Source: a virus. From it: DNA of 64,000 bases. Where the stretch lies: IMG/VR virus record IMGVR_UViG_3300044568_005111, positions 1-64,000 of that record. One strand, 5' to 3'. Positions 1,981-51,134 of this stretch are shown in pieces. The notes under the pieces were generated by a model that did not search any database, was not told where the DNA came from, and saw nothing but the letters and a program-made list of their open reading frames with translations. A program made the position numbers and the translations under genes. Numbering within the stretch: position 1 is the first letter of the stretch; each line of letters begins with the position of its first letter.

Positions 1981-3645
1981 ATGGCAAAAGTCACAGACGA
2001 TTTTAAAGTATTTACTAGACTCAGCATATATGTTGAGGATCTATTGTCGCAAACAATAAATTATCTAACTAGTCAGTTTAATCAGAGTAGAGCAGTATTT
2101 ACTTCCGCTTCACCATTTGGCCAGCTTCTACTAGTTGTTGAGAACCTAACACAACTTGTATTCTATTATATTGAAGACTCAATCACTGAGTTAAATATCA
2201 ACGAGGCAACCCGATTGACTTCAATTTACTCCTTAGCTACCTTGGCTGGACACAATCCAAGTAGAGCAGTATCTGCATCTGGCGAAATAAGCTTGTCTAC
2301 CTTGGCTGGCTCAGGCGAACCGCCGACTGATTTTGTAATTATCCCTAACTTGACTAGAATTCGATGTAAAAATAATGGACTTACCTATGTATTAGACCTT
2401 CCCCAAGATGAGATCAAGTTTTCTTTTAATGGAACTAATAATGGTCTTAGGATAGGTATTAGACAAGGTATAATTGAGTCCCAAACAGTTACGGCTAAAG
2501 GCGAACCAATTGAAAGTTTTGCAATAGGCAGTCCGCAAAACTATTATATTGATAACTTTATGGTTAATGTTCATGTAAATGGGGAAAAATGGACGAAATA
2601 TGACTCTATCATCGACATGCCTAGGGGAGAAAAGGCATACTTAATTAAGACCGGTATAACTACTGGAGTCGACCTCTTCTTTGGAAATGGAAACTATGGT
2701 AAGATACCTACTCGTGGAGCAGATATCCTAGTTGAATACTTGGTAACTGAGGGTGCAAATGGAAATATCCGAAGCAATGATTTAGGTAGTATAAAATTTG
2801 ACTTTGTGGACACCGGCTTCAGTATCCTAGGAGACGAAATTGATCTAAACGAATACATTGAGATCTCTACCTCAAATGCACCCTTCTTTGGAACTAATGC
2901 TGAGGATTCTAAATTGACTAGGCTACTCGCGCCAAAGCAGTCTAAAAGCTTTGCACTAGTTAATGTAGATCACTATGAAACAGTATTAAGAAAACTAAAG
3001 CTTTTCTCCATCATAAATGTTGCACTAGATGAAGTCGATCCTAGAATGTTGAATCTATTTCTTATTCCAGATATTCGAAAGACTTTTAGTGTAGCACAAG
3101 ATTATTTTAGTGCAAGTCTAGATAGATTTGCAATGAATGACTATCAGAAAAACCAATTGTTACAATACATTGAAAAGTCTGGAAGCAAACTTATCTCAAC
3201 CGACGTTCAAATCGTTGATCCTATTCCTAGTGAGTATGTCATAAATACTTCGATTATTGCATTTGATGATGTCTCTACTGATATTATTAAGAGAGACATC
3301 CTAAATAATTTAGGTGAATACTTTATTCAAAATACTAGATTCACTAGAATACCTAAGAGTGACCTAATTAAGATAGTTGAGGAGGTAAATGGAGTCGATT
3401 CTGTTTCAATTAATATTATATCTAAAAAGAATGAACTTGCAAAAGTTCAAAATCCTTCTGCACCAGATATAGGTATTGACGAGTTTAACGATATTATTGT
3501 CTCATACCAAGAACTTCCTATAATTAGAGGAGGCTTTACTGATCGTTATGGACAAGTATATTCTACTGGAATAACTCCTGATTCACTAGGTCCAGTAAAT
3601 ATTCAAATTAAAGAGATTGTGCCTAGACCAAAAAAGATTAATTAA
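1981..3645 (+). CDS. Baseplate wedge protein, T4 gp6 / baseplate-J-like
   Basis: A 554-residue protein. The helical N-terminus with YIEDSITELNINEATR, followed by beta-rich blocks (ISLSTLAGSGEPP, VDLFFGNGNYGKIPTRGADI) and a late domain with LLAPKQSKSFALVNVDHYE, fits T4 gp6 and baseplate-J proteins. These dimerise around the hub to form the wedge ring. T4 gp6 is about 660 residues, so this is a shorter relative. The gene starts a plus-strand block that runs into terminase. The match is by remembered sequence pattern only, and an alternative is another baseplate-J family member. Confidence 0.6.
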   Translation: MAKVTDDFKVFTRLSIYVEDLLSQTINYLTSQFNQSRAVFTSASPFGQLLLVVENLTQLVFYYIEDSITELNINEATRLTSIYSLATLAGHNPSRAVSASGEISLSTLAGSGEPPTDFVIIPNLTRIRCKNNGLTYVLDLPQDEIKFSFNGTNNGLRIGIRQGIIESQTVTAKGEPIESFAIGSPQNYYIDNFMVNVHVNGEKWTKYDSIIDMPRGEKAYLIKTGITTGVDLFFGNGNYGKIPTRGADILVEYLVTEGANGNIRSNDLGSIKFDFVDTGFSILGDEIDLNEYIEISTSNAPFFGTNAEDSKLTRLLAPKQSKSFALVNVDHYETVLRKLKLFSIINVALDEVDPRMLNLFLIPDIRKTFSVAQDYFSASLDRFAMNDYQKNQLLQYIEKSGSKLISTDVQIVDPIPSEYVINTSIIAFDDVSTDIIKRDILNNLGEYFIQNTRFTRIPKSDLIKIVEEVNGVDSVSINIISKKNELAKVQNPSAPDIGIDEFNDIIVSYQELPIIRGGFTDRYGQVYSTGITPDSLGPVNIQIKEIVPRPKKIN

Positions 3646-3646
3646 C

Positions 3647-3892
3647 ATGGTAAAAAATAGCATATATCGTCCAATATTTGATCGCAGAGAAAAAAGAGAA
3701 AACACTGGATTTGATTACAAGGGTCAAATCCTAAAAAAGACCCTCTCTTCTCAAATGTTCGGTGCTCACCCTCTACTTGATTACCTATTAGAAAGGGTTG
3801 AAAGTGTCGTATATGAGTGGGTTGAGGCAGTAAAACAAATAAAGATTACCGCTAATCCAGCACTGGATAAGTACGAAAATAAGATTAGATAA
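3647..3892 (+). CDS. Small virion-module protein, unknown
   Basis: An 81-residue protein. I chose the ATG at 3647, one base after the upstream stop, over an in-frame TTG at 3617 that would overlap it. It starts MVKNSIYRPIFDRREKRENT and is basic near the N-terminus, with a helical centre (HPLLDYLLERVESVVYEWVEA). No family recognised. Its place between gp6-like and the terminase genes suggests a baseplate or neck accessory. The stop abuts the next ATG, so the genes are probably translationally coupled. Confidence 0.7.
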   Translation: MVKNSIYRPIFDRREKRENTGFDYKGQILKKTLSSQMFGAHPLLDYLLERVESVVYEWVEAVKQIKITANPALDKYENKIR

Positions 3893-4631: not shown

Positions 4632-6611
4632 ATGAGAGACGTCATGACAAATGGTGGCGCTTTCAGCCATCGTAAGCTATCTAATCTATCAGGTTCAGTT
4701 GAAGACACAAATACTTCAATGTGGACTACTATCAGAATCAATAAGTTACTTGATGATATTGAAAATGATGGGTTTGATATTAAAGGTTTACACAACTCCC
4801 CATTTAAGGACAATGATATTAACCTAAAACGAGGAAATTTACCTTTTGAGTATACTCCAACTGAGTGGGAAGAGCTTAAGCGATGCAAAGCTGATATACT
4901 CTATTTTGCAGTAAATTATTGTAGGATCCAAACAAATGATGGTATTCAACTAATTCGAGATACTCCAGGACTTAGGGATTACCAGGAAGAGATACTTGAG
5001 TCGTTTAAAGGAAATAAGTTTAATATCCTAATGGCAAGTCGCCAAACTGGAAAATCCGTAACGTCAGCTATTTTTATCCTATGGTATCTACTATTTAAGT
5101 CTGATAAAACTGCCCTAATTGTTGCAGATAACTTTACAACTACTCGAGAGTTATTAGACAAGTTTAGAATATGTCTAGACGGTCTACCGTTCTTTATGAA
5201 ACCTGGAATCAAACATATTAATTCAGGAAATATCAAATTTGATAATGACAGTCGTGTTGTAGGTAGAACGACTACTAAAAAATCAGGTATTGGTCTCTCT
5301 GTAAACATCCTATATATTGATGAGTTTGCCCATATTGATGAAGCAAAATTAGATGAATTTTATCGAGCTATCTTACCTACTATTACTGCCGATCCAAATG
5401 CAAAGGTGATAATTACCTCTACACCAAATGGTAAAAATAAATTTTATGAGATTTGGGTGGATGCAATTGCTAGTAAAAGCGACTATGTTCCACTTAGAGT
5501 TGATTGGTGGCAAGTTAAAGGTAGAGATGAAGCATGGAAACAGGCAGTTATTGCTAACATGGGATCAGTAGAAGATTTTAATCAAGAGTATGGACTACAG
5601 TTCTTCTCATCCGACCAATTATTACTAAACTCAAATGAGTTAAAGAGACTCTATAATATTAAAGCAGATTATCAAAATACTAAGTTTTCTTTAACTGAAG
5701 ATAAGCAGTGGATTAATGAGTGCTTTACTGTTCATCCAAACTATGTAAATAGAACACCTACTGATTATAAAAATGATCCTGCAAAATATGTATTTTCAGT
5801 AGATACGGCAGATGGCACTGGCGGAGACTACTCAGTATTAAACATCTATAAAGTTGCATGTCTACCGATTGTTGAACTCTTAAAAAAGAAAGAGGCTATT
5901 CGTGGAGAAATTGATACTACTTCACTGGTGCAAGTTGCAACATTTAGAACTAATGAATATGATATTAATGAATTTGCAGCTGGAGTAGAATACATAACCT
6001 ATAACCTATTTAATTCAGAAAACGTCCGAATCGTTCTTGAAATGAATCATAAGGGGGAGATAATAAAAAATAGGCTAGAGAGCAATGATAATTACTGGCC
6101 TTCCCAATTAGTCCATACTAAACATACTGAGATGGCAGTAGCCTCAAAACCAGGAATTAGACTTGGTCCAACTAATAAGATTAGATATTGCGAAAAATTT
6201 AAGTATCTAGTTGAGGTTAAAAAAATCATACCTAATGATTTTCTAACAGTAATGGAGCTAATGGCATTTGGTAAAACCAAAGGTGGATCATATCGTGGAC
6301 AAAATGGAAATGATGATCTTGCAATGACATGTGTTAACTTAGCACCAGCGATTGACTCTAATCAATTATGGGAGCTTTCAATAGAGACGTATGAATTAAC
6401 ATCAGCTGAATATAGAAAAGAAGTAGAGGAGAAAATATTTAATCTATTTAGATCTAACTTAAATAAACCTGCTTTTGATTATGATACGTTACGAGAAGTA
6501 AATGCGCCAGACAATGGAGCAAAAAAAGGATTAGAGCCACGGCGTCATGTATTTGATGTTGAATCACTAGGTCAAATGCAAAAAATTAAAGATAAATTTT
6601 TTAAAAGCTAA
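4632..6611 (+). CDS. terL: Terminase large subunit, gp17-like
   Basis: A 659-residue packaging motor and nuclease. An adenine-binding segment is followed by Walker A MASRQTGKS near residue 134 and Walker B ILYIDEFAH near residue 226, with a TSTPNG coupling motif after it. The C-terminal RNase-H-like nuclease has FSVDTADGTGGDYS with the first catalytic Asp, an IVLEMNHKG strand, and GNDDLAMT with the last acidic residues. All expected motifs are present, so it should be active. It cuts concatemers and translocates DNA into proheads. Confidence 0.95.
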   Translation: MRDVMTNGGAFSHRKLSNLSGSVEDTNTSMWTTIRINKLLDDIENDGFDIKGLHNSPFKDNDINLKRGNLPFEYTPTEWEELKRCKADILYFAVNYCRIQTNDGIQLIRDTPGLRDYQEEILESFKGNKFNILMASRQTGKSVTSAIFILWYLLFKSDKTALIVADNFTTTRELLDKFRICLDGLPFFMKPGIKHINSGNIKFDNDSRVVGRTTTKKSGIGLSVNILYIDEFAHIDEAKLDEFYRAILPTITADPNAKVIITSTPNGKNKFYEIWVDAIASKSDYVPLRVDWWQVKGRDEAWKQAVIANMGSVEDFNQEYGLQFFSSDQLLLNSNELKRLYNIKADYQNTKFSLTEDKQWINECFTVHPNYVNRTPTDYKNDPAKYVFSVDTADGTGGDYSVLNIYKVACLPIVELLKKKEAIRGEIDTTSLVQVATFRTNEYDINEFAAGVEYITYNLFNSENVRIVLEMNHKGEIIKNRLESNDNYWPSQLVHTKHTEMAVASKPGIRLGPTNKIRYCEKFKYLVEVKKIIPNDFLTVMELMAFGKTKGGSYRGQNGNDDLAMTCVNLAPAIDSNQLWELSIETYELTSAEYRKEVEEKIFNLFRSNLNKPAFDYDTLREVNAPDNGAKKGLEPRRHVFDVESLGQMQKIKDKFFKS

Positions 6612-25897: not shown

Positions 25898-27277
25898 GTG
25901 AGTTTACTTAATTTCAATACATGGCATAGTTTAAATGAAGCAGTTACATTTGATAAGAGTGCAAATTATGCAGATAAAACATTTGGTTATCCAGTAGGAG
26001 CAGTAGATACAACTAAAGTTTTTCTAGGCGGGACTGGTAGTGATTGGGGCGGTAGCATGCAACGAGCTCTATGGTTTGCGAGAACAGCAGACGATTGGGC
26101 AAAGTCAAATGGAAAAAATGGAAGTCTAATCAGCTCTCAAAAAAGATCTAGGGTCTTGACTGCTTCCGGTAATACCTCAGACCACTATAAAGGAAACAAT
26201 AATACATATGCAGTAGATATTGCTGCTTCTGGAACAGAAGGTGATACTTTGCTTGCATACATAATGGAAAAGTTTGGGCATCCTGAATATAAAGGAGGTT
26301 CATGGTTTAATATCACAATTGATGGCTATCGATATCAAGTAGGATGGAAAGTAAAAAACCATTTTGACCACATTCATGTTGGTGTAAAGAGGACAGTCGG
26401 TGAAAGAATAGAATCAGCAGTTAATAAAGTAAAGGAGTCGCTAGGTGCAAAGCTAGTAAAAAATCCAAAGATTGCCGAATGGTTAAAGAAAAACATACCT
26501 AATGCAGTGACTAGTGAAAAACTTGATAGTATTTTAGCGGCTGATCCTAAGACATTTGAATGGTTCAAAAGGACCTTTAACTTAAATGATGCTGGTGATT
26601 CACTAGTCTCGACTGACCTGACTACTGCAAATATAAAATCTAATTATACTGGAGAAAAAGCAACCAACATTAATTTATTAGTTAATGAAATAACTGCTCT
26701 TGGCGTCACCAATAAATATGCAATAGTCGGTATGTTATCTACTATAGGCAAGGAGAGCGGATTTGTTCCTAAGAATGAGATCCCATATAAGTCAACCAGT
26801 AATGCACGAATTCGAAAAATATTTGGATCCAGAGTAAAAGGATTAACTGACGATGAGTTAACTGCCCTAAAAAACAATGATATTAAGTTTTGGGATCGAG
26901 TATATGGATCAGATGATCCTACTGGAAAGTCACAACAGTATGGAAATAATAATCCTGGAGATGGAGCCAAATACTTAGGTCGAGGTTTTAATGGAATTAC
27001 ATTTAAAAGTAACTATAAAAAATATGGTGATGCAATCGGAATGGATCTTGTCGCTAATCCTGAATCTCTAAATGATCCAGCAGTTGCAGCAAAGGCTGCC
27101 GTAAAATTCTTGTTAAATGGACTAAAAACCAAAGGTATTGACCCAAATAGTTTTACTGATAAAAAAGATGCTATTCATGCATTCGTACAAGTAAACGCTG
27201 GGCTTGGTTCAAATATCGAAGGTTCTGAGACTCTTGCAAATGCAATAAAAGTATCAGATAATTTTAATCTAGCCTAA
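25898..27277 (+). CDS. Two-domain peptidoglycan hydrolase (peptidase-like + GH19-like)
   Basis: A 459-residue protein from a GTG start. The N-terminus MSLLNFNTWHSLNEAVTF carries the packaging signature. Residues about 30-170 resemble an M15/VanY-type peptidase: TSDHYKGNNNTYAVDIAAS supplies an H-x6-D-like metal pair and FDHIHVGV the last His. Residues about 250-455 are GH19-like lysozyme (IVGMLSTIGKESGF with the catalytic Glu, GAKYLGRGFNGITFKSNYKK). Both could cut cell wall during DNA entry if packaged, or during lysis. A dedicated endolysin exists at 50307, which favours an entry role here. Confidence 0.75.
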   Translation: MSLLNFNTWHSLNEAVTFDKSANYADKTFGYPVGAVDTTKVFLGGTGSDWGGSMQRALWFARTADDWAKSNGKNGSLISSQKRSRVLTASGNTSDHYKGNNNTYAVDIAASGTEGDTLLAYIMEKFGHPEYKGGSWFNITIDGYRYQVGWKVKNHFDHIHVGVKRTVGERIESAVNKVKESLGAKLVKNPKIAEWLKKNIPNAVTSEKLDSILAADPKTFEWFKRTFNLNDAGDSLVSTDLTTANIKSNYTGEKATNINLLVNEITALGVTNKYAIVGMLSTIGKESGFVPKNEIPYKSTSNARIRKIFGSRVKGLTDDELTALKNNDIKFWDRVYGSDDPTGKSQQYGNNNPGDGAKYLGRGFNGITFKSNYKKYGDAIGMDLVANPESLNDPAVAAKAAVKFLLNGLKTKGIDPNSFTDKKDAIHAFVQVNAGLGSNIEGSETLANAIKVSDNFNLA

Positions 27278-38272: not shown

Positions 38273-38387
38273 AGTCAGGTGGTGGAATGGTAAAGCACCT
38301 GGTGAGCGGTAAATGGTAGGGAGTCATGACCTGAGAGTATACGTTAAGTCTTGCCATGAGATGCAGGTTCGACCCCTGTCCTGACTA
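38273..38387 (+). ncRNA. tRNA-like RNA, AGTCAGG class, copy 2
   Basis: Same acceptor AGTCAGG/CCTGACT, D-arm GTG/CAC, T-arm GCAGG-TTCGACC-CCTGT. The 64-base middle holds a helix ATGGTA/TGCCAT in place of an anticodon arm. Its inner sequence differs from the copy at 38003. Confidence 0.65.
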
Positions 38388-38449: not shown

Positions 38450-38571
38450 AGTTAGGTGGTGAAATGGTAGACCGCCCCTTCTCATCAAAGGGGAGATGGA
38501 GTTCGAATCTCTGAAGTTGAGTAAAATCAACGAGTATAGTACTATTACAGGTTCGAATCCTGTCCTGACTA
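38450..38571 (+). ncRNA. tRNA-like RNA, AGTCAGG class, with extra T-arm-like hairpin
   Basis: Acceptor AGTTAGG/CCTGACT, D-arm, then a clear anticodon-like arm CCCTT-CTCATCA-AAGGG (CAT, but C at position 37). Next come a hairpin GAGAT/ATCTC containing GTTCGAAT, then GTTGA/TCAAC, then AGTA/TACT, and finally the true T-arm ACAGG-TTCGAAT-CCTGT. The extra domain sits where the variable loop belongs. Confidence 0.6.
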
Positions 38572-40394: not shown

Positions 40395-42023
40395 ATGACA
40401 AAGTTTAGAAACGACAAACTTCGTTCGACGCTAGCTGGAATGCAGCCTCAAGCGAATCTGGTAGAAGCGGTGAAAATCCCAAAACCAGACACTAAGAATC
40501 GTCAAGGACATGCAGCTTATTCACAAGATAAGTGGCTTAGACTCTTGACGATGTTAAACACACTAAAGCTAGAAAATCAATTCTATCGTTCTGAGACAGA
40601 AACGATGAGGGAGTTGAAAGGACTAGTCGATGAGTGTGCAAAAGAAGACGCTTACTTCGTAGCTCAATCTATCGTGTATTCACGATGTGTTGGTGAAGGA
40701 ATGAGATCAATTAACCACCTTGCGGCAAGCTACCTAGCTCCACACTGTGCGGGTCAAGAATGGGCAAAACGTTTCTATTCCCTATGGAACAAACGTACTC
40801 AATCCGGAGGAACATTATTTCGTCCAGATGATATGGCTGAAATCGTTGCATGCTTCTCAGCATTAAACGGGACTAAAGTCACAAATGCAATGAAAAAAGG
40901 ATTTGCTGATGCTCTTGAAAACTTAGATGCTTATGCATTACTAAAATACAAGAGCTCTCTAGTTGACGTAATCAACTTAGTTCACCCAAATCCATCAGCG
41001 TCTAGTGCAGTAGCAGAGGTAAATGGAGAAAAAGTTCCAGTTCTTTCGGCTATCATGAAAGGCTTATCAGTATCTGCGGATACTTGGGAAGTTGCTCAGT
41101 CTGATGCAGGTCAAGAAGTTGCGAAAGCAGTTAAAGAAGGTAAAATCGACAAGTCAGAAGCTGAAACTATCCTAAAGGAAGCTAAGGCTGAAAACTGGGA
41201 TGCTCTTTTAACTGACGGTAAACTTGGAATCCTAGCTGCTCTTCGAAATATTAGAAATGTATTGAAGACAGTTAACAAAGGAGACACGGTTACTAAATTG
41301 ACTGCTCTTTTATCTAGTCCAGATGCAATCCGAAAAGGAAAGATTATGCCATACCAAATTGACCTAGCTCACGAGGTAACGATCTCAGAATTCTCTGATT
41401 CTAATGCTAGAGCGATTGCACAAGCATTACTTAAAGGATATGAAGCAGCTGTGCCAAACCTTTCAGAGATGCTTCCTGGTAAGACTCTAGTAATGGTGGA
41501 TTTCTCTGGATCAATGGGTACACCAATGACGGATGGCGCAAGAAGCGGAAAACGTTATACTAGTCGATGCATGGATAAAGCGGCTTTGATCGCAGCAACC
41601 ATTGCAAAGGCAACAAATGGAGATGTAATCCGATTTGGTTCAAGTGCTGAATACGTAAAATGGAACGCTAACTCTGATGTATTCTCTATTGCTAGCGCAA
41701 TGAAGAGAGATATGGGAGGAACTAACTTATCAGCAGCATGGGCAGTAGCTCAAATGTCTGGACGTCAGTACGACCGAGTGTTCATCTTATCTGATAATGA
41801 GTGTAACCGTGGAAACTCTTACAAAGCATACGAGACATACACAAAAGCATGCGGAAGCCCATACGTTTACTCGGTGGATCTAGCAGCTTACGGAACGACT
41901 CAACTTGCTGGAGATAAAGTTCGTTTCTACTATGGATACGGATACTCAATGTTCGATGATATCGCAAAAAGCGAGTTCAATCCAAATTATCACTTAGAGA
42001 AAGTTCGCAAGATCAAAATCTAA
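40395..42023 (+). CDS. Ro60-like TROVE/VWA RNA-binding protein
   Basis: A 542-residue protein with the length and two-part plan of Ro60/Rsr. The helical HEAT-like TROVE ring covers residues 1 to about 350 (DECAKEDAYFVAQSIVYSRC, VGEGMRSINHLAASYLAPHC). A von Willebrand A domain follows with an intact MIDAS (VDFSGSMG, Asp near residue 369, and a later GGTNLSAAW and LSDNECN). Ro60 proteins bind Y RNAs on the outside of the ring and misfolded or structured RNAs in the hole. In bacteria they work with exoribonucleases such as PNPase in RNA decay and rRNA maturation. The gene sits in the tRNA array, flanked by tRNA-like RNAs. Confidence 0.92.
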   Translation: MTKFRNDKLRSTLAGMQPQANLVEAVKIPKPDTKNRQGHAAYSQDKWLRLLTMLNTLKLENQFYRSETETMRELKGLVDECAKEDAYFVAQSIVYSRCVGEGMRSINHLAASYLAPHCAGQEWAKRFYSLWNKRTQSGGTLFRPDDMAEIVACFSALNGTKVTNAMKKGFADALENLDAYALLKYKSSLVDVINLVHPNPSASSAVAEVNGEKVPVLSAIMKGLSVSADTWEVAQSDAGQEVAKAVKEGKIDKSEAETILKEAKAENWDALLTDGKLGILAALRNIRNVLKTVNKGDTVTKLTALLSSPDAIRKGKIMPYQIDLAHEVTISEFSDSNARAIAQALLKGYEAAVPNLSEMLPGKTLVMVDFSGSMGTPMTDGARSGKRYTSRCMDKAALIAATIAKATNGDVIRFGSSAEYVKWNANSDVFSIASAMKRDMGGTNLSAAWAVAQMSGRQYDRVFILSDNECNRGNSYKAYETYTKACGSPYVYSVDLAAYGTTQLAGDKVRFYYGYGYSMFDDIAKSEFNPNYHLEKVRKIKI

Positions 42024-42126: not shown

Positions 42127-42230
42127 AGTCAGGTGGCGGAATGGTAGACGCTACATTAATGGGTGGATAGTGTGCCATTGGGGAAGAACCATAAAAGTTA
42201 CACATATGGGTTCGATTCCTGTCCTGACTA
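42127..42230 (+). ncRNA. tRNA-like RNA, AGTCAGG class, copy 4
   Basis: Acceptor AGTCAGG/CCTGACT, D-arm GCG/CGC, T-arm ATGGG-TTCGATT-CCTGT. It is a near-copy of 38003-38106 with equal length. The GCGT/ACGC pair there is GTGT/ACAC here, a compensated change. The AATGG/CCATT helix is kept. Confidence 0.7.
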
Positions 42231-43169: not shown

Positions 43170-43826
43170 ATGGCAAGAAAGGAACATCAATATCATTACA
43201 TTTACAAGACTACTTGTAATGTTACTGGAAGATATTACATCGGGATGCACTCGACTTCTAACTTAGAAGATAGATATATTGGAAGCGGGACTAGATTATG
43301 GAAGTCACTCAATAAACATGGAAAGGAGAATCATTCAATTGAAATATTAGAATGGTATTCAGATAGAAATTCATTGAAACTAAGAGAAAAAGAATTAGTT
43401 AATGAGGAAACTCTTAATGATCCAATGTGTATGAATTTAATGATTGGTGGAGGAGGTGGAAAAATATCAGACGAGCAACAAAGGTCTAGATCAATCACTG
43501 GAGGTCGTGCATTTGCTAATAAATTAAAAAGTGATCCTGAGTTATTAAAACACGTTCAAATGATTGCATCAAATAACTTGAAAAAATTACATGAGAAAGG
43601 AGATTTCAATTATAATACTTTTCAAGGAAAGACGCATTCCGATGAGACTAAAAATAAAATTGGAGCAGCAAATTCAATTAAGCAGAGTGGATATAATAAT
43701 TCACAATATGGAACTTGTTGGATAACTAATGAAATTGATTCTAAGAAAATTCATAAGGGCGATCTTATCCCAAGTGGATGGAGATTAGGTCGAAAAGCCC
43801 TCAAAATAAGAAGTCGTAACTCCTAG
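43170..43826 (+). CDS. GIY-YIG homing endonuclease
   Basis: A 218-residue enzyme. The GIY-YIG core reads HYIYKTTCNVTGRYYIGMHS, with the catalytic Arg in DRYIGSG and Glu in REKELVNEE. A NUMOD3-type DNA-binding motif follows (GKTHSDETKNKIGAANS). The C-terminus TCWITNEIDSKKIHKGDLIP and SGWRLGRK is typical of phage homing endonucleases. It is free-standing between tRNA-Asp and tRNA-Asn and likely a mobile gene. Expression is probably delayed by the hairpin before its ATG. Confidence 0.9.
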   Translation: MARKEHQYHYIYKTTCNVTGRYYIGMHSTSNLEDRYIGSGTRLWKSLNKHGKENHSIEILEWYSDRNSLKLREKELVNEETLNDPMCMNLMIGGGGGKISDEQQRSRSITGGRAFANKLKSDPELLKHVQMIASNNLKKLHEKGDFNYNTFQGKTHSDETKNKIGAANSIKQSGYNNSQYGTCWITNEIDSKKIHKGDLIPSGWRLGRKALKIRSRNS

Positions 43827-45127: not shown

Positions 45128-45142
45128 GATAAATAATAAAAA
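45128..45142 (+). promoter_or_regulatory. Late-promoter-like motif
   Basis: GATAAATAATAAAAA, exact consensus, eleven bases before the TTG start of the first histidine kinase. Confidence 0.55.
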
Positions 45143-45153
45143 GTCTTATTGGG

Positions 45154-46833
45154 TTGGCACCTTTTCATATATTTGCAAAGAAAAATGCAAAGAAACTTTC
45201 AAATTTTAAAGTAGGAGTTAGCCTACGAATAAAGATAAAATTAGCAATTGCTGCAATTCTAATGATTGCATATATGTGCGTTAAAATTTCAATTCTTGCT
45301 GGATTGCGTGAGTCTACTGAGGTTACTCGATGGATAGAATTTGTTGGTGTTATTTCATATATTCTAATATCAATCCTATTAATTAAAGACTTTATCAATT
45401 TAACTAAACATTCAGTATCTAAGGAATCTATTGATAAGATGAGTGAGTTAGAAAATTTCTTAGACTCTTCGTCAATTATATCTAAGGCTGATGCTAAAGG
45501 TAAAATTACTTATGTAAATGATAAATTCACTAAGGTTTCTGGTTACTCACTAGAAGAAGTGCTTGGAAAAGATCACTCTATTGTAAATTCAGGAGATCAA
45601 CCTGATGGATATTGGGGAAAAATGTATGCTCAAGTTCTTACTGGAAAAATATGGAATGATGTAGTCACAAATAGAGCAAAGGATGGCTCTCTATATTATG
45701 TAGATACTTATATCAAAGCTCAATTTAATCAGCATGGTAAGCTTGAAGGATTTATGTCGATTCGCCAAGATGTTACTGAGCTACGAAGAAGGGAGGCTGA
45801 GATATCTAATAGAATGAATGCAATTAATAGATCAAATGCTGTTATTGAATTTGACCTAGATGGAAATATTAAATTTGCAAACGATTTATTTTTAAAAACA
45901 TTAGGCTACTCCTTAAATAGTGAAATTATAGGAAAACACCATAGTTTATTTGTTGAAGATGAAGTAATAGATACTGATGAATATCGAGACTTTTGGAAAA
46001 CATTGGGCACTGGCAAATTCTTTATGGGAGAGATCACTCGAAAGAAGAAAGACGGATCACTAATCTATCTTCAAGCAACATATAATCCTATTATAGGCAC
46101 TGATGGAAAGCCATATCGAGTAATGAAAATCGCTACTGATATTACTCAAAGTTTTAATCAACAAGCTGAAATTGAAAAGAAGAATACTTATCTTGAGCAT
46201 GCGGCAAAGATTCTACGGCATGATATGCATAGTGGAATCAATACCTATATGCCTCGAGGATTATCATCACTAGAACGAAGACTTTCAGATGACCAGATAA
46301 AAGAGCTTAAGATTGAAGCTCCACTAAAAATGATTAAAGAAGGATTACGACACACTCAAAAAGTATATAAAGGAGTTTACGAATTTACTAATCTAGTAAA
46401 AAAGGATGTTGTTCTTACTCGCGAAGACTTAAATCTCAAAGACATACTCGAGGACTATTTGTCCTCGACTGCATATAGACCGCAAGTAATAATCTCAGAT
46501 CTAGGTCAGTCTAGTGTTAATGAAGCATTATTTTGTACTTCATTAGATAATCTTATTCGTAATGGTTTAAAGTATAATGACAGTCCTAGTAAACTAGTTA
46601 AGATATACCGTATTGATGATATTCTTTATGTTGAAGACAATGGACGCGGTTTAAGCCAAGAAGATTTTAACCATCTTTCCAAACCATATACACGAAAAGA
46701 AGGACAGCAGGAATCAGGAACTGGTCTTGGGCTTAATATCTGTATTGCAATTCTTGAAGAACATGGATTCTCTATTACTTGTTCTAAACTTTCACAAGTT
46801 GGAACGCAAATGAAAATACGACTAAGCAGATAA
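45154..46833 (+). CDS. Membrane sensor histidine kinase with two PAS domains
   Basis: A 559-residue protein from a TTG start. Two membrane segments lie near residues 25-75 (LAIAAILMIAYMCVKISILA; FVGVISYILISILLI). Two PAS domains follow (SSIISKADAKGKITYVNDKF near 110 and NAVIEFDLDGNIKFANDLF near 225). The kinase has an H-box LRHDMHSGINTYMPRGL with His near residue 356, N-box LDNLIRNGLKYND, G1 VEDNGRGL and G2 GTGLGLN. All ATP-site motifs are present, so it should autophosphorylate. It shares the unusual H-box with the kinase at 47438. Confidence 0.92.
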   Translation: MAPFHIFAKKNAKKLSNFKVGVSLRIKIKLAIAAILMIAYMCVKISILAGLRESTEVTRWIEFVGVISYILISILLIKDFINLTKHSVSKESIDKMSELENFLDSSSIISKADAKGKITYVNDKFTKVSGYSLEEVLGKDHSIVNSGDQPDGYWGKMYAQVLTGKIWNDVVTNRAKDGSLYYVDTYIKAQFNQHGKLEGFMSIRQDVTELRRREAEISNRMNAINRSNAVIEFDLDGNIKFANDLFLKTLGYSLNSEIIGKHHSLFVEDEVIDTDEYRDFWKTLGTGKFFMGEITRKKKDGSLIYLQATYNPIIGTDGKPYRVMKIATDITQSFNQQAEIEKKNTYLEHAAKILRHDMHSGINTYMPRGLSSLERRLSDDQIKELKIEAPLKMIKEGLRHTQKVYKGVYEFTNLVKKDVVLTREDLNLKDILEDYLSSTAYRPQVIISDLGQSSVNEALFCTSLDNLIRNGLKYNDSPSKLVKIYRIDDILYVEDNGRGLSQEDFNHLSKPYTRKEGQQESGTGLGLNICIAILEEHGFSITCSKLSQVGTQMKIRLSR

Positions 46834-47441
46834 TGACAAAAATCCTTCACTTATTCTTCTTTCTTTTTTTATCATTTTTATCATACACACAAAATGACTA
46901 CCCAGTTCAAACTGTTTTGAAAGGTGATTCTGTGGTAATCTATACAGTTGAGCAAAATAATGATATAGAGTTTCTTTTAGCAAACCAGAGAAACCGTGTA
47001 AACTATTTTAAAAATAATATTGCTAGACAAGAAGAGATTATTGATAGTCTAAATCGGCTAGTACAAAAGCAAAAACTTTTTGCTGACAGTTTACAGCTGA
47101 TCCTAAACACAAATTCTAGTGATTATGATAGTTTATATGCAAAGTATCGCAATACAGAAAAATGGCTTTATAATACAGCAGTTGACAATGCATTTATTTA
47201 TTATTCATTTGAAAACTCTGCAGTCATGGCTATTGATTTAACCTCATATGTTTTAGTAGGTTATAAAAGATCTGGTAATTTTTTATTAGCACGCAGAGGA
47301 CCAGTGTATGATGATCTGTACTGGAAAGAGTATAATCGAAACTACCCAAGTGAGCCTAACAACGATTGGCTTACCTTTTACAAAATACGTTGGAGGCCTT
47401 CGTTAGTGCAGTTTCCTTATCGAATAAACCCACAGCCATGA
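46833..47441 (+). CDS. Exported coiled-coil protein between the kinases
   Basis: A 202-residue protein overlapping the kinase stop by one base. It has an N-terminal signal (MTKILHLFFFLFLSFLSYTQ), a charged coiled coil (NNIARQEEIIDSLNRLVQKQ) and an aromatic C-terminal domain. It is probably periplasmic. Its place between two sensor kinases makes a sensory or accessory role attractive but unproven. No family recognised. Confidence 0.7.
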   Translation: MTKILHLFFFLFLSFLSYTQNDYPVQTVLKGDSVVIYTVEQNNDIEFLLANQRNRVNYFKNNIARQEEIIDSLNRLVQKQKLFADSLQLILNTNSSDYDSLYAKYRNTEKWLYNTAVDNAFIYYSFENSAVMAIDLTSYVLVGYKRSGNFLLARRGPVYDDLYWKEYNRNYPSEPNNDWLTFYKIRWRPSLVQFPYRINPQP

Positions 47442-48886
47442 AAAAACTACTTATCACAGCAATATTAATACTATTTGGTATTAGTTTTACAAGCGCTCAA
47501 TACTCTGTAAAAGATCAAGAGAAAAAAATTGTTTGGGTTAGCGGCATACCTACCTGTCCAAGTGATCCACAAATAACGGCCTTAATCGAAAAAGCTGGAC
47601 TTGAAAACTTAAAAAAGCCTAAAAAAGGAATTACTAGAGCTGAATCTAATACTTGTCGGGAACTCGGTAAAGTGTTTAACCAAAGGGAAATGTATGAAGG
47701 TGCAGATTGGTATCTAGAGAGAGTGAAAGGTTATGTTGAAGTTATTAATTTAGCACCTGATGCAGTATTTGAAATGCCAAAGGAAATTGAGGAAATGCCA
47801 TTATCCGAAGATAATGTAAAATCATTAGAGTCAGATAAAGCATTCTTAGAAAATCTCCCACAAAGCTACGATGACGTTTCCCCTAATGACATGAAAAAAC
47901 TTGCTAGTGAAATTGGAAATAAACTAAAAGCTCTAATTGCAGAAAAGGAAGCTCTACTCACAAGTCATGCTCCGCAAGAAGTAATCGACGTAAAGGACGC
48001 TACTATTGGAACTCTTGGAAAAGAGAAAAAAATTATCGATCTATCAATTAAAAAAGATGGATTGGAAGTTGAAGTTGATGACTTAGAAGTTGAAAAGAAA
48101 ACTTTGACCAAATGGTTATGGTTGTCATGTGCAAGTATATTAGTCGCTTTCTTAGGGATCATTGCACTACTTCAAAGAAAAACAATTAAAGTAAAAGACG
48201 GTGAGATTGAAAGACAGCTGGCAGATATTAATAAAAAGAATACTTATTTAGAATATGCGGCACGAATCATTCGTCATGATATGCATAGCGGAATCAATAC
48301 TTATATGCCTCGAGGATTAAGTGGTTTACAAAAGCGAATTACTCCAGAGATTATTGCCGAACTTAAAATTGGATCCTCTATACAAATGATACAAGAAGGT
48401 CTTTTACATACACAAAAAGTTTATAAAAATGTTTATGAATTTACTAATCTTGTAAAGGTGAAATCTGAGTTTAATAAAGTGGAAATTGATGCTAAAATCT
48501 CATTAGAAAAGTACTTATCAAGCACATCGTATAGTAAACAAGTAAAGATTTTAGATCTCGGTACACTATTAGCAAATGAACAATTGTTATGTAATGCTAT
48601 AGATAATTTAATTAAGAATGGACTTAAATATAATGACCACACGATCAGAACAATCAAAATATATAAATTAAAAGATTTTATTATTGTTGAAGATAACGGC
48701 AAAGGTCTTACCTCTCAAAAATTTGAAGAGTACGTGAAAAGAGGAGTAGATATTGAAGCTGAAACAGGATTAGGTTTAGGGATTGCGAAAGCAATTATTG
48801 AAGAGCATGGATTTAAGCTATCCTGTGAAGAAATACCTTCAGGTGGAACAAAAATGAAAATTAAAATAACAAATAATAATGATTGA
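47438..48886 (+). CDS. Exported/membrane sensor histidine kinase
   Basis: A 482-residue protein from the ATG at 47438 (MKKLLITAILILFGISFTSA signal). An earlier ATG at 47366 lies inside the previous gene. A periplasmic domain (VSGIPTCPSDPQITALIEKA) and coiled coil precede one membrane segment (WLWLSCASILVAFLGIIALL). The kinase has H-box IIRHDMHSGINTYMPRGLSG (His near residue 280), N-box IDNLIKNGLKYND, G1 VEDNGKGL and G2 ETGLGLGIAK. It is clearly paralogous to the kinase at 45154 in the catalytic half, with a different sensor. Confidence 0.9.
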   Translation: MKKLLITAILILFGISFTSAQYSVKDQEKKIVWVSGIPTCPSDPQITALIEKAGLENLKKPKKGITRAESNTCRELGKVFNQREMYEGADWYLERVKGYVEVINLAPDAVFEMPKEIEEMPLSEDNVKSLESDKAFLENLPQSYDDVSPNDMKKLASEIGNKLKALIAEKEALLTSHAPQEVIDVKDATIGTLGKEKKIIDLSIKKDGLEVEVDDLEVEKKTLTKWLWLSCASILVAFLGIIALLQRKTIKVKDGEIERQLADINKKNTYLEYAARIIRHDMHSGINTYMPRGLSGLQKRITPEIIAELKIGSSIQMIQEGLLHTQKVYKNVYEFTNLVKVKSEFNKVEIDAKISLEKYLSSTSYSKQVKILDLGTLLANEQLLCNAIDNLIKNGLKYNDHTIRTIKIYKLKDFIIVEDNGKGLTSQKFEEYVKRGVDIEAETGLGLGIAKAIIEEHGFKLSCEEIPSGGTKMKIKITNNND

Positions 48887-49310
48887 TTCAATTTTACTAG
48901 TGGATGACGAAAGTTTATTTCACCTAGTTTTCGAGGATGCATGTAGTCTCCTTGATATCTCTCTTACTTTAGAGAGCATTGACAGTTCAGACGAAGCTGC
49001 GAAGCTGTTTGAAGGATGGCAAAAAGATTCAGACGGTAAACCCGAATGCGTATTTGTGGACCTAAATATTATAGGTTCATCATATGATGGAATTGAACTT
49101 ATTCGTAAGATTAATTTTGAATACGGTAATAACGTAGTAATTGGAATTATCTCTTCTTCTGATGAACCGGAAGAGCAGGCAAAAGCAGTTCAATCTGGAG
49201 CACAGTTTTGGATTATTAAATCTGACGAAATAGAACCTAGATTAGAAGAGTTTAGAAATGACTATGAATCATACCGAAATAGAACAGCTCCATTTAAAAT
49301 ATACAGATAA
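48879..49310 (+). CDS. Single-domain response regulator
   Basis: A 143-residue receiver protein overlapping the kinase by eight bases. Acidic pair DD at residues 9-10 (LLVDDESLF), phosphoacceptor Asp61 (VFVDLNIIG), Ser in IISSSDEP and Lys114 (FWIIKSDE) are all present. No DNA-binding output domain, so it must act by protein contact, as CheY-type regulators do. It is the evident partner of one or both kinases. Confidence 0.92.
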   Translation: MIDSILLVDDESLFHLVFEDACSLLDISLTLESIDSSDEAAKLFEGWQKDSDGKPECVFVDLNIIGSSYDGIELIRKINFEYGNNVVIGIISSSDEPEEQAKAVQSGAQFWIIKSDEIEPRLEEFRNDYESYRNRTAPFKIYR

Positions 49311-49963
49311 TGAAGTTTAGTAGAGAAGCTATTGATTCAATTATTGCTCTAAAAAAGAGAAACATCTATTTAGAAGGAAATATTATCAAGCTCATTGAGT
49401 CAGATGATGAAGATTTCACTCAATATTTAGCTGAAGCTTTGGCTAAGGATAAAGAGAATCGTAAGCGCCGCCTTGATGTTACTAAACAAATACAGGGACA
49501 AAATTCTGAACTACTTAAAAAGAGAGCAGAAAACGAAAATCTTATGCTTGAACTTAGAGAAACTTTAGCTGAGATGGAGGAATCTAAATCTCAAATAGAA
49601 TTTCAAAATACTGAACTTGTTCAGTGGAAAGAAAAGAATGAAATTATTGGAGAAGAGCTAAAGGCCGCACTAGAGCATGCAGAAAAAGCAAAAGATCTTG
49701 CTGAAACAGATTTAGACATGCTACAAAAAAGAACTCAATTTGAATTGATTGGGACAATTGTCAAAGTTGCCTTATACGTTATTATAGGAGTCGGTGCCGT
49801 GACTACTGTCATGTATAGTATCGCTCTTTTTGCAGATAAGGACACTCAAATTATTGGATCTACGTGGAGTAACATGTTTGGGATATTATTAACTAACGCA
49901 TTTTCTATAATCGGTACGATTATGGGTGTAAAATACGCTAGTGAAAAACCCAAAAAAGAATAA
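49310..49963 (+). CDS. Coiled-coil protein with two C-terminal membrane segments
   Basis: A 217-residue protein overlapping the receiver stop by one base. A long coiled coil to about residue 145 (NLMLELRETLAEMEESKSQI) is followed by two membrane helices (IVKVALYVIIGVGAVTTVMY and MFGILLTNAFSIIGTIMGV). Coupled to the receiver gene and upstream of lysis genes, it may transmit the phospho-signal to the membrane; this is inference. No family recognised. Confidence 0.75.
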   Translation: MKFSREAIDSIIALKKRNIYLEGNIIKLIESDDEDFTQYLAEALAKDKENRKRRLDVTKQIQGQNSELLKKRAENENLMLELRETLAEMEESKSQIEFQNTELVQWKEKNEIIGEELKAALEHAEKAKDLAETDLDMLQKRTQFELIGTIVKVALYVIIGVGAVTTVMYSIALFADKDTQIIGSTWSNMFGILLTNAFSIIGTIMGVKYASEKPKKE

Positions 49964-49977
49964 AAAAATAAATTAAA

Positions 49978-50286
49978 ATGGCTGAGAAAAAACAAACAAA
50001 GGGAAACTTATTTTTCGGATGGGAAAATATTAAGTGGTTTATTAAAGAAATTAGAGAAATGTATTCATCAAGTAATTCATATTTTTCTAAAAAGAGAATT
50101 GAATCAGGCGTAGCATTTGCAGTAGCTCAATGGGGAATGATTTTCTTCCTACTTGAGAAGCACACTGAAATGACATCTTCTGATCTTGCAATTTGGGCAG
50201 GTATTGAGTTTGCTGTATCTGGATATATCGTTAATCAGATCCAAAAGGAGAAGAAAGGGTCTTCAGATGAGTCTGAGAACTCATAA
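49978..50286 (+). CDS. Holin-like small membrane protein
   Basis: A 102-residue protein with two membrane segments (SGVAFAVAQWGMIFFLLEKH and DLAIWAGIEFAVSGYIVNQI), a basic first part and a charged tail. Size, two-segment topology and position just before an endolysin fit a holin. No holin family was recognised by sequence alone. Confidence 0.6.
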   Translation: MAEKKQTKGNLFFGWENIKWFIKEIREMYSSSNSYFSKKRIESGVAFAVAQWGMIFFLLEKHTEMTSSDLAIWAGIEFAVSGYIVNQIQKEKKGSSDESENS

Positions 50287-50306: not shown

Positions 50307-51134
50307 ATGTTACTAAAGAAAGGATCCTCTGGAGAGGACGTAAAAAGACTTCAGATAAAATTAGGCCTTACTCCAGATGCGGGTGTTGCACAGTTTGGTC
50401 CAAAGACGGAATCCGCTGTTAAATCATGGCAAAAAGCAAATGGTTTAGAAGATGATGGTATAGTAGGTGATACTACTTGGGGAAAACTATTTGGTGTAAC
50501 TGATCAGATCACAGATGCAGTTACTCAAGTTCAAGGTCTTGCTCTAGATAAACTAAAGGGGCATATTGCAGAGGTAGTATTTCAACAAATCGCAGGAGTA
50601 TGTAAGGCATTTAATATTACAAATAATTTAAGACTAGCTCATTTTCTTGCACAGTGTTCACATGAATCAGGTGGATTTAAAGCAGTGAGTGAAAACTTAA
50701 ATTACTCAGCAGATGGACTAAAGAAAATATTTCCAAAATATTTTCCAGGAAACCTAAATGAGTCATATGCAAGACAACCTGAAAAGATTGCAAGCAGAGT
50801 CTATGGCGGTCGTATGGGAAATGGTGATGAGTCAACTAAGGAAGGTTACAAGTTTAGAGGTCGCGGATATATCCAATTAACTGGTAAAAGCAATTATGAA
50901 ACATTTACTAAATTTATTGGCGAAGACTGTATTGCTAATCCTGACCTAGTTGCAACAAAATATCCATTAGCATCAGCTGCATTCTTCTTTAATAAAAATG
51001 GACTATGGTCAATTTGTGATAAAGGAGCAGATGACACGACTGTTACTGCTGTGACTAAAAGAGTAAACGGTGGAACGATTGGATTAGCGGATCGTATTAA
51101 ACACTTTAAGGAATATTATAATCTACTTAAGTAA
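50307..51134 (+). CDS. Endolysin: peptidoglycan-binding + GH19 domain
   Basis: A 275-residue enzyme. Residues 1 to about 65 form a PG_binding_1 domain (LKKGSSGEDVKRLQIKLGLT, FGPKTESAVKSWQKANGL). Residues about 90-275 form a GH19 lysozyme (LRLAHFLAQCSHESGGFKAV with the catalytic Glu, KFRGRGYIQLTGKSNYE, ASAAFFFNKNGLW). It cleaves the glycan backbone of peptidoglycan. There is no signal peptide, so release would depend on a holin, consistent with the gene before it. Confidence 0.92.
   Translation: MLLKKGSSGEDVKRLQIKLGLTPDAGVAQFGPKTESAVKSWQKANGLEDDGIVGDTTWGKLFGVTDQITDAVTQVQGLALDKLKGHIAEVVFQQIAGVCKAFNITNNLRLAHFLAQCSHESGGFKAVSENLNYSADGLKKIFPKYFPGNLNESYARQPEKIASRVYGGRMGNGDESTKEGYKFRGRGYIQLTGKSNYETFTKFIGEDCIANPDLVATKYPLASAAFFFNKNGLWSICDKGADDTTVTAVTKRVNGGTIGLADRIKHFKEYYNLLK

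Follow-up and report, generated by a model that had tools for sequence, protein, structure and literature searches.

Phage-encoded sensor kinases, a single-domain receiver, and a coiled-coil membrane protein form a conserved cassette beside lysis genes, with a putative role in lysis control

The stretch of DNA analyzed here (the window, 64,000 nt) is part of a 103,435-bp IMG/VR virus record, IMGVR_UViG_3300044568_005111, that encodes a T4-type terminase (Terminase_6N), a baseplate wedge protein, DNA ligase, and thymidylate synthase, together with 25 tRNAs. Within the window, a series of overlapping genes occurs in the order HK1, EXP, HK2, RR, and CC, followed by a holin-like gene and then by an endolysin gene. 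The features of this locus, in window coordinates, are as follows.

45128..45135, + strand: T4-late-promoter-like element GATAAATA, a 7/8 match to TATAAATA located 5' of HK1; weak as a single site
45154..46833, + strand: HK1, kinase with a TTG start, a transmembrane (TM) hairpin, two PAS domains, DHp, the H-box RHDMHSGINTYMPRGL (His356), and HATPase_c
46833..47441, + strand: EXP, exported periplasmic coiled-coil protein with a signal peptide in its sequence; candidate partner of HK2
47438..48886 (from the first ATG), + strand: HK2, kinase with a signal peptide, a periplasmic domain, one TM helix, and a DHp + HATPase_c core (His280)
48879..49310, + strand: RR, single-domain receiver with D9, D10, D61, S92, and K114 and without an output domain
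49310..49963, + strand: CC, 217-aa protein with an N-terminal head, a long coiled coil, and two TM helices; proposed membrane effector
49978..50286, + strand: small TM protein of 102 aa, a possible holin, found beside CC in several loci
50307..51134, + strand: GH19 endolysin (Pfam PG_binding_1 and Glyco_hydro_19; phrog_181 endolysin, 2.4e-67)

Consecutive cassette genes overlap, as read from the window sequence, by 1 nt (HK1/EXP), 4 nt (EXP/HK2), 8 nt (HK2/RR), and 1 nt (RR/CC). A preliminary description of this DNA had placed the two kinases, the exported protein, and the receiver in the same open reading frames, and those coordinates are retained. The extent of the cassette was revised: the four genes stand, and the overlapping CC, the downstream 102-aa TM protein, and the GH19 endolysin, all of which had been left out, are now included. 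The 102-aa protein showed no family match.

Genes of a different nature were noted elsewhere in the window, where a tRNA array contains a Ro60/TROVE-like protein (40395-42023; phrog_850, 2.6e-35) and a GIY-YIG/NUMOD3-like homing endonuclease (43170-43826), the latter with matches slightly below Pfam cut-offs. Three tRNA-like RNAs (38273-38387, 38450-38571, and 42127-42230) gave an Rfam match, were not called by ARAGORN, and have common ends (AGUCAGGUGG/AGUUAGGUGG...CCUGACUA), with a long insert replacing the ordinary anticodon arm. One of them begins approximately 100 nt after the Ro60 stop codon, and the three may be Y-RNA-like (YrlA-type) partners of Ro60.

Both kinases possess the hallmarks of two-component kinases, namely the phospho-acceptor His of the DHp domain and the N, G1, and G2 boxes. 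HK1 and HK2 carry one and the same H-box, RHDMHSGINTYMPRGL, and of the 62 residues that extend from the start of this box through the second DHp helix, 45 are common to the two proteins. Pfam recognized HATPase_c in each kinase and two PAS domains in HK1, while its HisKA family matched neither protein, the RHDMHSGINTYMPRGL H-box going unrecognized by that model. An AlphaFold model of HK2 (mean pLDDT 73) matched the HK853 and CpxA folds with E values of ~1e-8. The predicted TM hairpin of HK1 occupies residues 20-53 and 57-85, and its start, TTGGCACCTT (TTG), was also found in two related loci (L010 and L018). Among relatives, the kinase core is constant (77% mean column identity, with the H-box and the N, G1, and G2 boxes invariant in 41/41 cores), and the sensor region varies, having no TM segment, a TM hairpin, PAS domains, or a periplasmic domain. 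The earlier proposal of two kinases with one H-box and different sensors is therefore borne out, with a double PAS and the added TM hairpin in HK1 and a periplasmic domain in HK2.

RR has the residues expected of a receiver, matching Pfam Response_reg at 1.3e-8, and the acidic pair (D9 and D10), D61, S92, and K114 were invariant in 53/53 receivers, in keeping with the intact Asp61 and Lys114 reported previously. RR is better conserved than any other protein of the set, with 88% mean column identity, and in all relatives it consists of 143 aa of receiver only. With catalytic residues invariant in kinases and receivers alike and the unit conserved in viral loci, the assignment as a phage-encoded two-component system holds, and phosphotransfer from HK1 and HK2 to RR would be expected from their sequences. 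The preliminary description had gone on to propose a phosphorelay sensing cell state or envelope, and a generic relay of this kind, feeding a transcriptional response, would fit a single receiver served by two kinases whose sensors differ. However, the cassette proteins include no Hpt domain, no hybrid kinase or kinase-fused receiver, and no DNA-binding output domain, fused to RR or otherwise, and what regularly accompanies kinase and receiver is a membrane protein. We consider that reading quite improbable; the layout is instead one of kinase(s), single-domain receiver, and membrane protein.

A scan of IMG/VR yielded at least 572 confirmed viral relatives of the kinase core and at least 552 of CC; conservation of the unit in more than 550 relatives indicates that the cassette is not a chance arrangement. 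Among the matches listed, 105 distinct CC loci contained RR in 100 cases, each time adjoining CC, and HK in 95. RR-CC pairs among these matches were within 20 nt of each other in 116/116 instances and overlapped by 1 or 4 nt in 104/116. Loci and records are related, so that the counts are not independent, and IMG/VR records may be fragments. The conserved unit is thus HK-RR-CC. In five loci (L214, L215, L216, L226, and L231), HK2 and RR are separated by ~700 nt of additional sequence, which may represent an inserted gene.

The distribution of the unit was also assessed against 50,697 phage records by tblastn, in which RR, CC, and EXP gave no match or noise only, and the kinase core gave matches of 22-36% identity, mostly in unannotated records resembling host-type kinases. 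The statement that lytic phages rarely carry even one kinase thus applies to cultured-phage records and fails for the present lineage. In bacteria, relatives were found in two Bacteroidota metagenome-assembled genome (MAG) loci, L082 and L083, the latter chromosomal and consisting of HK-RR without CC. In samples of Bacteroidota genomes, only the seed genome was recovered, both with the kinase core (390 genomes) and with the CC head (390 and 395 genomes). With hundreds of viral loci and almost no bacterial ones, the H-box does mark a phage-specific kinase family, a possibility that the preliminary description had raised.

When kinase cores were arranged in a tree, with a midpoint root that serves only for drawing and implies no direction of transfer, the cellular kinases fell on long branches interspersed with the viral kinases, and 25 of the 26 kinases occupying the second position formed one group (support 100/71). 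HK2 is therefore an old paralogue rather than a recent copy. A recent, broken host insertion, which the preliminary description had named as one finding that would undo its proposal, is excluded by this one old HK2 clade and by conservation in hundreds of viral loci. We also regard as very improbable that the genes are host-derived cargo captured recently by one phage and lacking a phage function. The relatives in two Bacteroidota MAG loci would be consistent with such an origin, but catalytic residues are invariant over diverged phages, the HK2 clade is old, and the sampled Bacteroidota genomes returned the seed genome only.

The exported protein that had been noted between the kinases was confirmed as a recurrent component. 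The EXP family was detected in 49 viral loci; in every one for which sufficient sequence is available, it is flanked by HK1 and HK2, and a 4-nt overlap joins HK and EXP in 24/29. On the basis of this linkage, EXP is a candidate partner of HK2. A role for EXP as a spanin was considered and rejected, as one of nine members matched phrog_1267 (Rz-like spanin) at only E=0.081 and the linkage of EXP is to HK2, not to the endolysin. Separately, HK2-type kinases occur in three long records, L172 (176 kb), L182 (385 kb), and L184 (281 kb), with no match to HK1, RR, or CC anywhere in the record.

CC is predicted by AlphaFold (mean pLDDT 83) to comprise a short N-terminal head, a long helix (residues 34-174) that runs into the first TM segment, and a second TM helix (residues 180-210). 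This second helix is the most conserved part of the protein, with a major-residue frequency of 0.92 versus 0.51 in the coil. Searches of Pfam, PHROG, PDB sequences, and Foldseek placed CC in no named family convincingly, and the only convincing match was to one uncultured-phage protein of the same family; phrog_1544, itself without an assigned function, matched 31 of 43 CC members weakly. Two records, L131 (177 kb; CC at 5574-6230) and L115 (75 kb; CC at 3150-3806), contain CC without HK or RR in the record, and in both of them two unidentified genes (297 and 427 aa) lie 5' of CC.

The clearest indication of how CC might work came from L082, a Bacteroidetes MAG contig with chromosomal neighbors, in which HK-RR is followed by a 349-aa protein. 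Its head and coil align with phage CC, the head being 35% identical to that of the window protein, and its C-terminus is a HisKA plus HATPase_c kinase. Fourteen positions are invariant in the 22 sequences of the head/coil alignment that includes L082. As an otherwise ordinary histidine kinase carries this head and coil in L082, the CC head is probably a receiver-driven input. From this alignment we infer that the head takes its signal from RR, that the coil transmits it, and that the C-terminal module is the output, which would be a kinase in the L082 bacterium and a membrane hairpin in phages.

The adjacency and overlap of RR and CC, together with the position of the L082 RR beside the head-kinase fusion, point to CC as the partner of RR, and the two proteins would be in direct contact. 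These same observations stand against an alternative in which RR targets a host protein (a kinase, a regulator, or RNA polymerase) and CC serves only to anchor or insulate at the membrane. Such a host take-over would agree with the exceptional conservation of RR, as if several partners bind it, and with its want of an output domain of its own, but we judge it unlikely given that the RR and CC genes nearly always adjoin and overlap and that the bacterial counterpart of CC is a signaling kinase fusion next to RR.

Relatives of the cassette were surveyed for neighboring lysis genes. For 47 representatives with <75% CC identity, chosen among the matches listed, the density of peptidoglycan-hydrolase genes was 0.285 per kb up to 1 kb from the cassette and 0 to 0.018 per kb at a distance of 3-8 kb, a difference of ~30-fold. 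The adjacent hydrolases of these representatives lay both upstream and downstream and on both strands. They belong to three unrelated kinds, GH19, GH24 lysozyme, and M15 peptidase, at least one of which was present within 3 kb in 53 of the 74 distinct full-flank loci among the matches listed; 13 of the 74 had no recognized hydrolase or holin-like gene within that distance. In a divergent branch (L248-L252), GH24 is located directly 5' of HK. Among whole virus records of at least 110 kb with an HK cassette and a GH19 match, GH19 was at most ~6 kb from the cassette in 15/19, where our own arithmetic from record lengths gives an expectation of ~1.8. Such a recurrent association in varied gene orders is difficult to attribute to descent alone. 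The window also encodes, elsewhere in the genome, a second protein with an endolysin-like domain (25898-27277; phrog_181, residues 261-409).

Sequences preceding the first kinase suggest when the cassette is expressed. In 24 of 113 loci among the matches listed, the 150 nt preceding the first kinase contain the T4-late-type motif TATAAATA, versus a background of 2.9%; ATAAATA occurs there in 43 of the 113, versus 6.9%. The enrichment of TATAAATA suggests that the cassette is expressed late.

Two predicted TM helices and linkage to an endolysin give CC the general character of a holin. Among described holin families, however, Phage_holin_9 matched at E=0.17, below the cut-off, with 4 of 43 members at E<=1, and CC is longer than usual holins. 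Since a separate holin-like gene adjoins CC in the window, CC need not be the hole-former; it could act as a pore or in regulating a holin. The lack of a holin match in a membrane protein would also suit a response to envelope state or superinfection, in which CC, acted on by phosphorylated RR, would change the inner membrane in a way that keeps out incoming phage DNA or stabilizes the envelope; the lysis genes would then adjoin the cassette because all of these genes are late and act on the envelope. HK2 and EXP, which face the periplasm, fit this alternative as well, but the association is specific to peptidoglycan hydrolases of three unrelated kinds, and we find it fairly unlikely.

Overall, we favor, with slightly better than even confidence, the explanation that these genes are a phage-specific, late-expressed signaling cassette that controls host lysis through CC. 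In the proposed mechanism, HK1, a membrane-anchored PAS kinase, would sense one condition, and HK2, present in many phages together with its periplasmic partner EXP, would sense another. Both kinases would phosphorylate one shared receiver, RR, which would act through direct contact with the cytoplasmic head and the coil of CC. The membrane hairpin of CC would then promote or restrain membrane opening, allowing the adjacent endolysin to act; phosphorylation, in response to the signals read by HK1 and HK2/EXP, may thus promote or delay lysis. Arguing against lysis gating are the missing holin-family match of CC and its unusual length for a holin, the separate holin-like gene of the window, the 13 of 74 loci in which no hydrolase or holin-like neighbor was recognized, the one 177-kb record with CC and neither HK nor RR, and the three records of 176-385 kb with HK2 and without HK1, RR, or CC.

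More tentatively, and with a little less than even confidence, we propose that the cassette is a virus-owned lysis decision circuit, in which a PAS kinase on the cytoplasmic side and a periplasmic kinase together with its partner protein converge on one receiver whose phosphorylation would gate a membrane effector, so that lysis time would be set by sensing and not by holin accumulation alone. CC would be suited to this circuit in having an input head in common with a bacterial signaling kinase and ending in a membrane hairpin. As the weakest part of this proposal, the orphan HK2 genes of other large phages might interfere with the circuit in co-infection. Hundreds of uncultured large aquatic phages may in this way sense the state of the infected cell to time its bursting, and, if the proposal is true, their lysis would be regulated according to the condition of the cell or its envelope. 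The cassette poses a testable question, that is, whether phosphorylation of the receiver switches CC and changes lysis.

No report of such a cassette was found in the open-access literature, coverage of which was incomplete. Its parts are known two-component parts, and it is the whole, with phage kinases, a receiver, and a phage-only membrane partner at lysis genes, that was not encountered in the literature searched. Moraphages are large aquatic Bacteroidota phages related to T4 that encode DnaK (PMC12619734), and the main text of that paper mentions no kinase, two-component system, or lysis. The phages described here are similarly large, aquatic, and T4 related, with DnaK near some cassettes, and moraphage-type phages may be their kin. 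Specifically, 16 loci have a DnaK gene no more than 4 kb from the cassette (e.g., L156, 8982-10841).

Single-domain regulators that act by protein contact are known in bacteria, with DivK acting on DivL/CckA in Caulobacter and CheY on FliM. By analogy, a kinase of the cassette would phosphorylate a receiver without an output domain, and partner binding would follow; the L082 RR has as its likely partner a protein that is itself a kinase, as DivL is for DivK. In contrast to these systems, the cassette is phage encoded, its partner protein ends in a membrane hairpin, and it is situated at lysis genes. The usual account of lysis timing in phages is that of a holin clock which small antiholins adjust, and in T4 lysis inhibition the holin T is controlled with RI and RIII through direct antiholin-holin contact, with no kinase or receiver. 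The cassette would resemble T4 lysis inhibition in passing an envelope signal to lysis timing via a membrane protein, whereas it differs in using kinase and receiver genes in place of antiholin-holin contact. The nearest concept is the CtrA-dependent "lytic deferment" of Alphaproteobacteria phages, in which a host regulator and its binding sites in phage promoters are involved and a two-component signal is proposed to set the time of lysis (PMC9437464). There the regulator belongs to the host, whereas here the kinases, the receiver, and the membrane protein are the phage's own.
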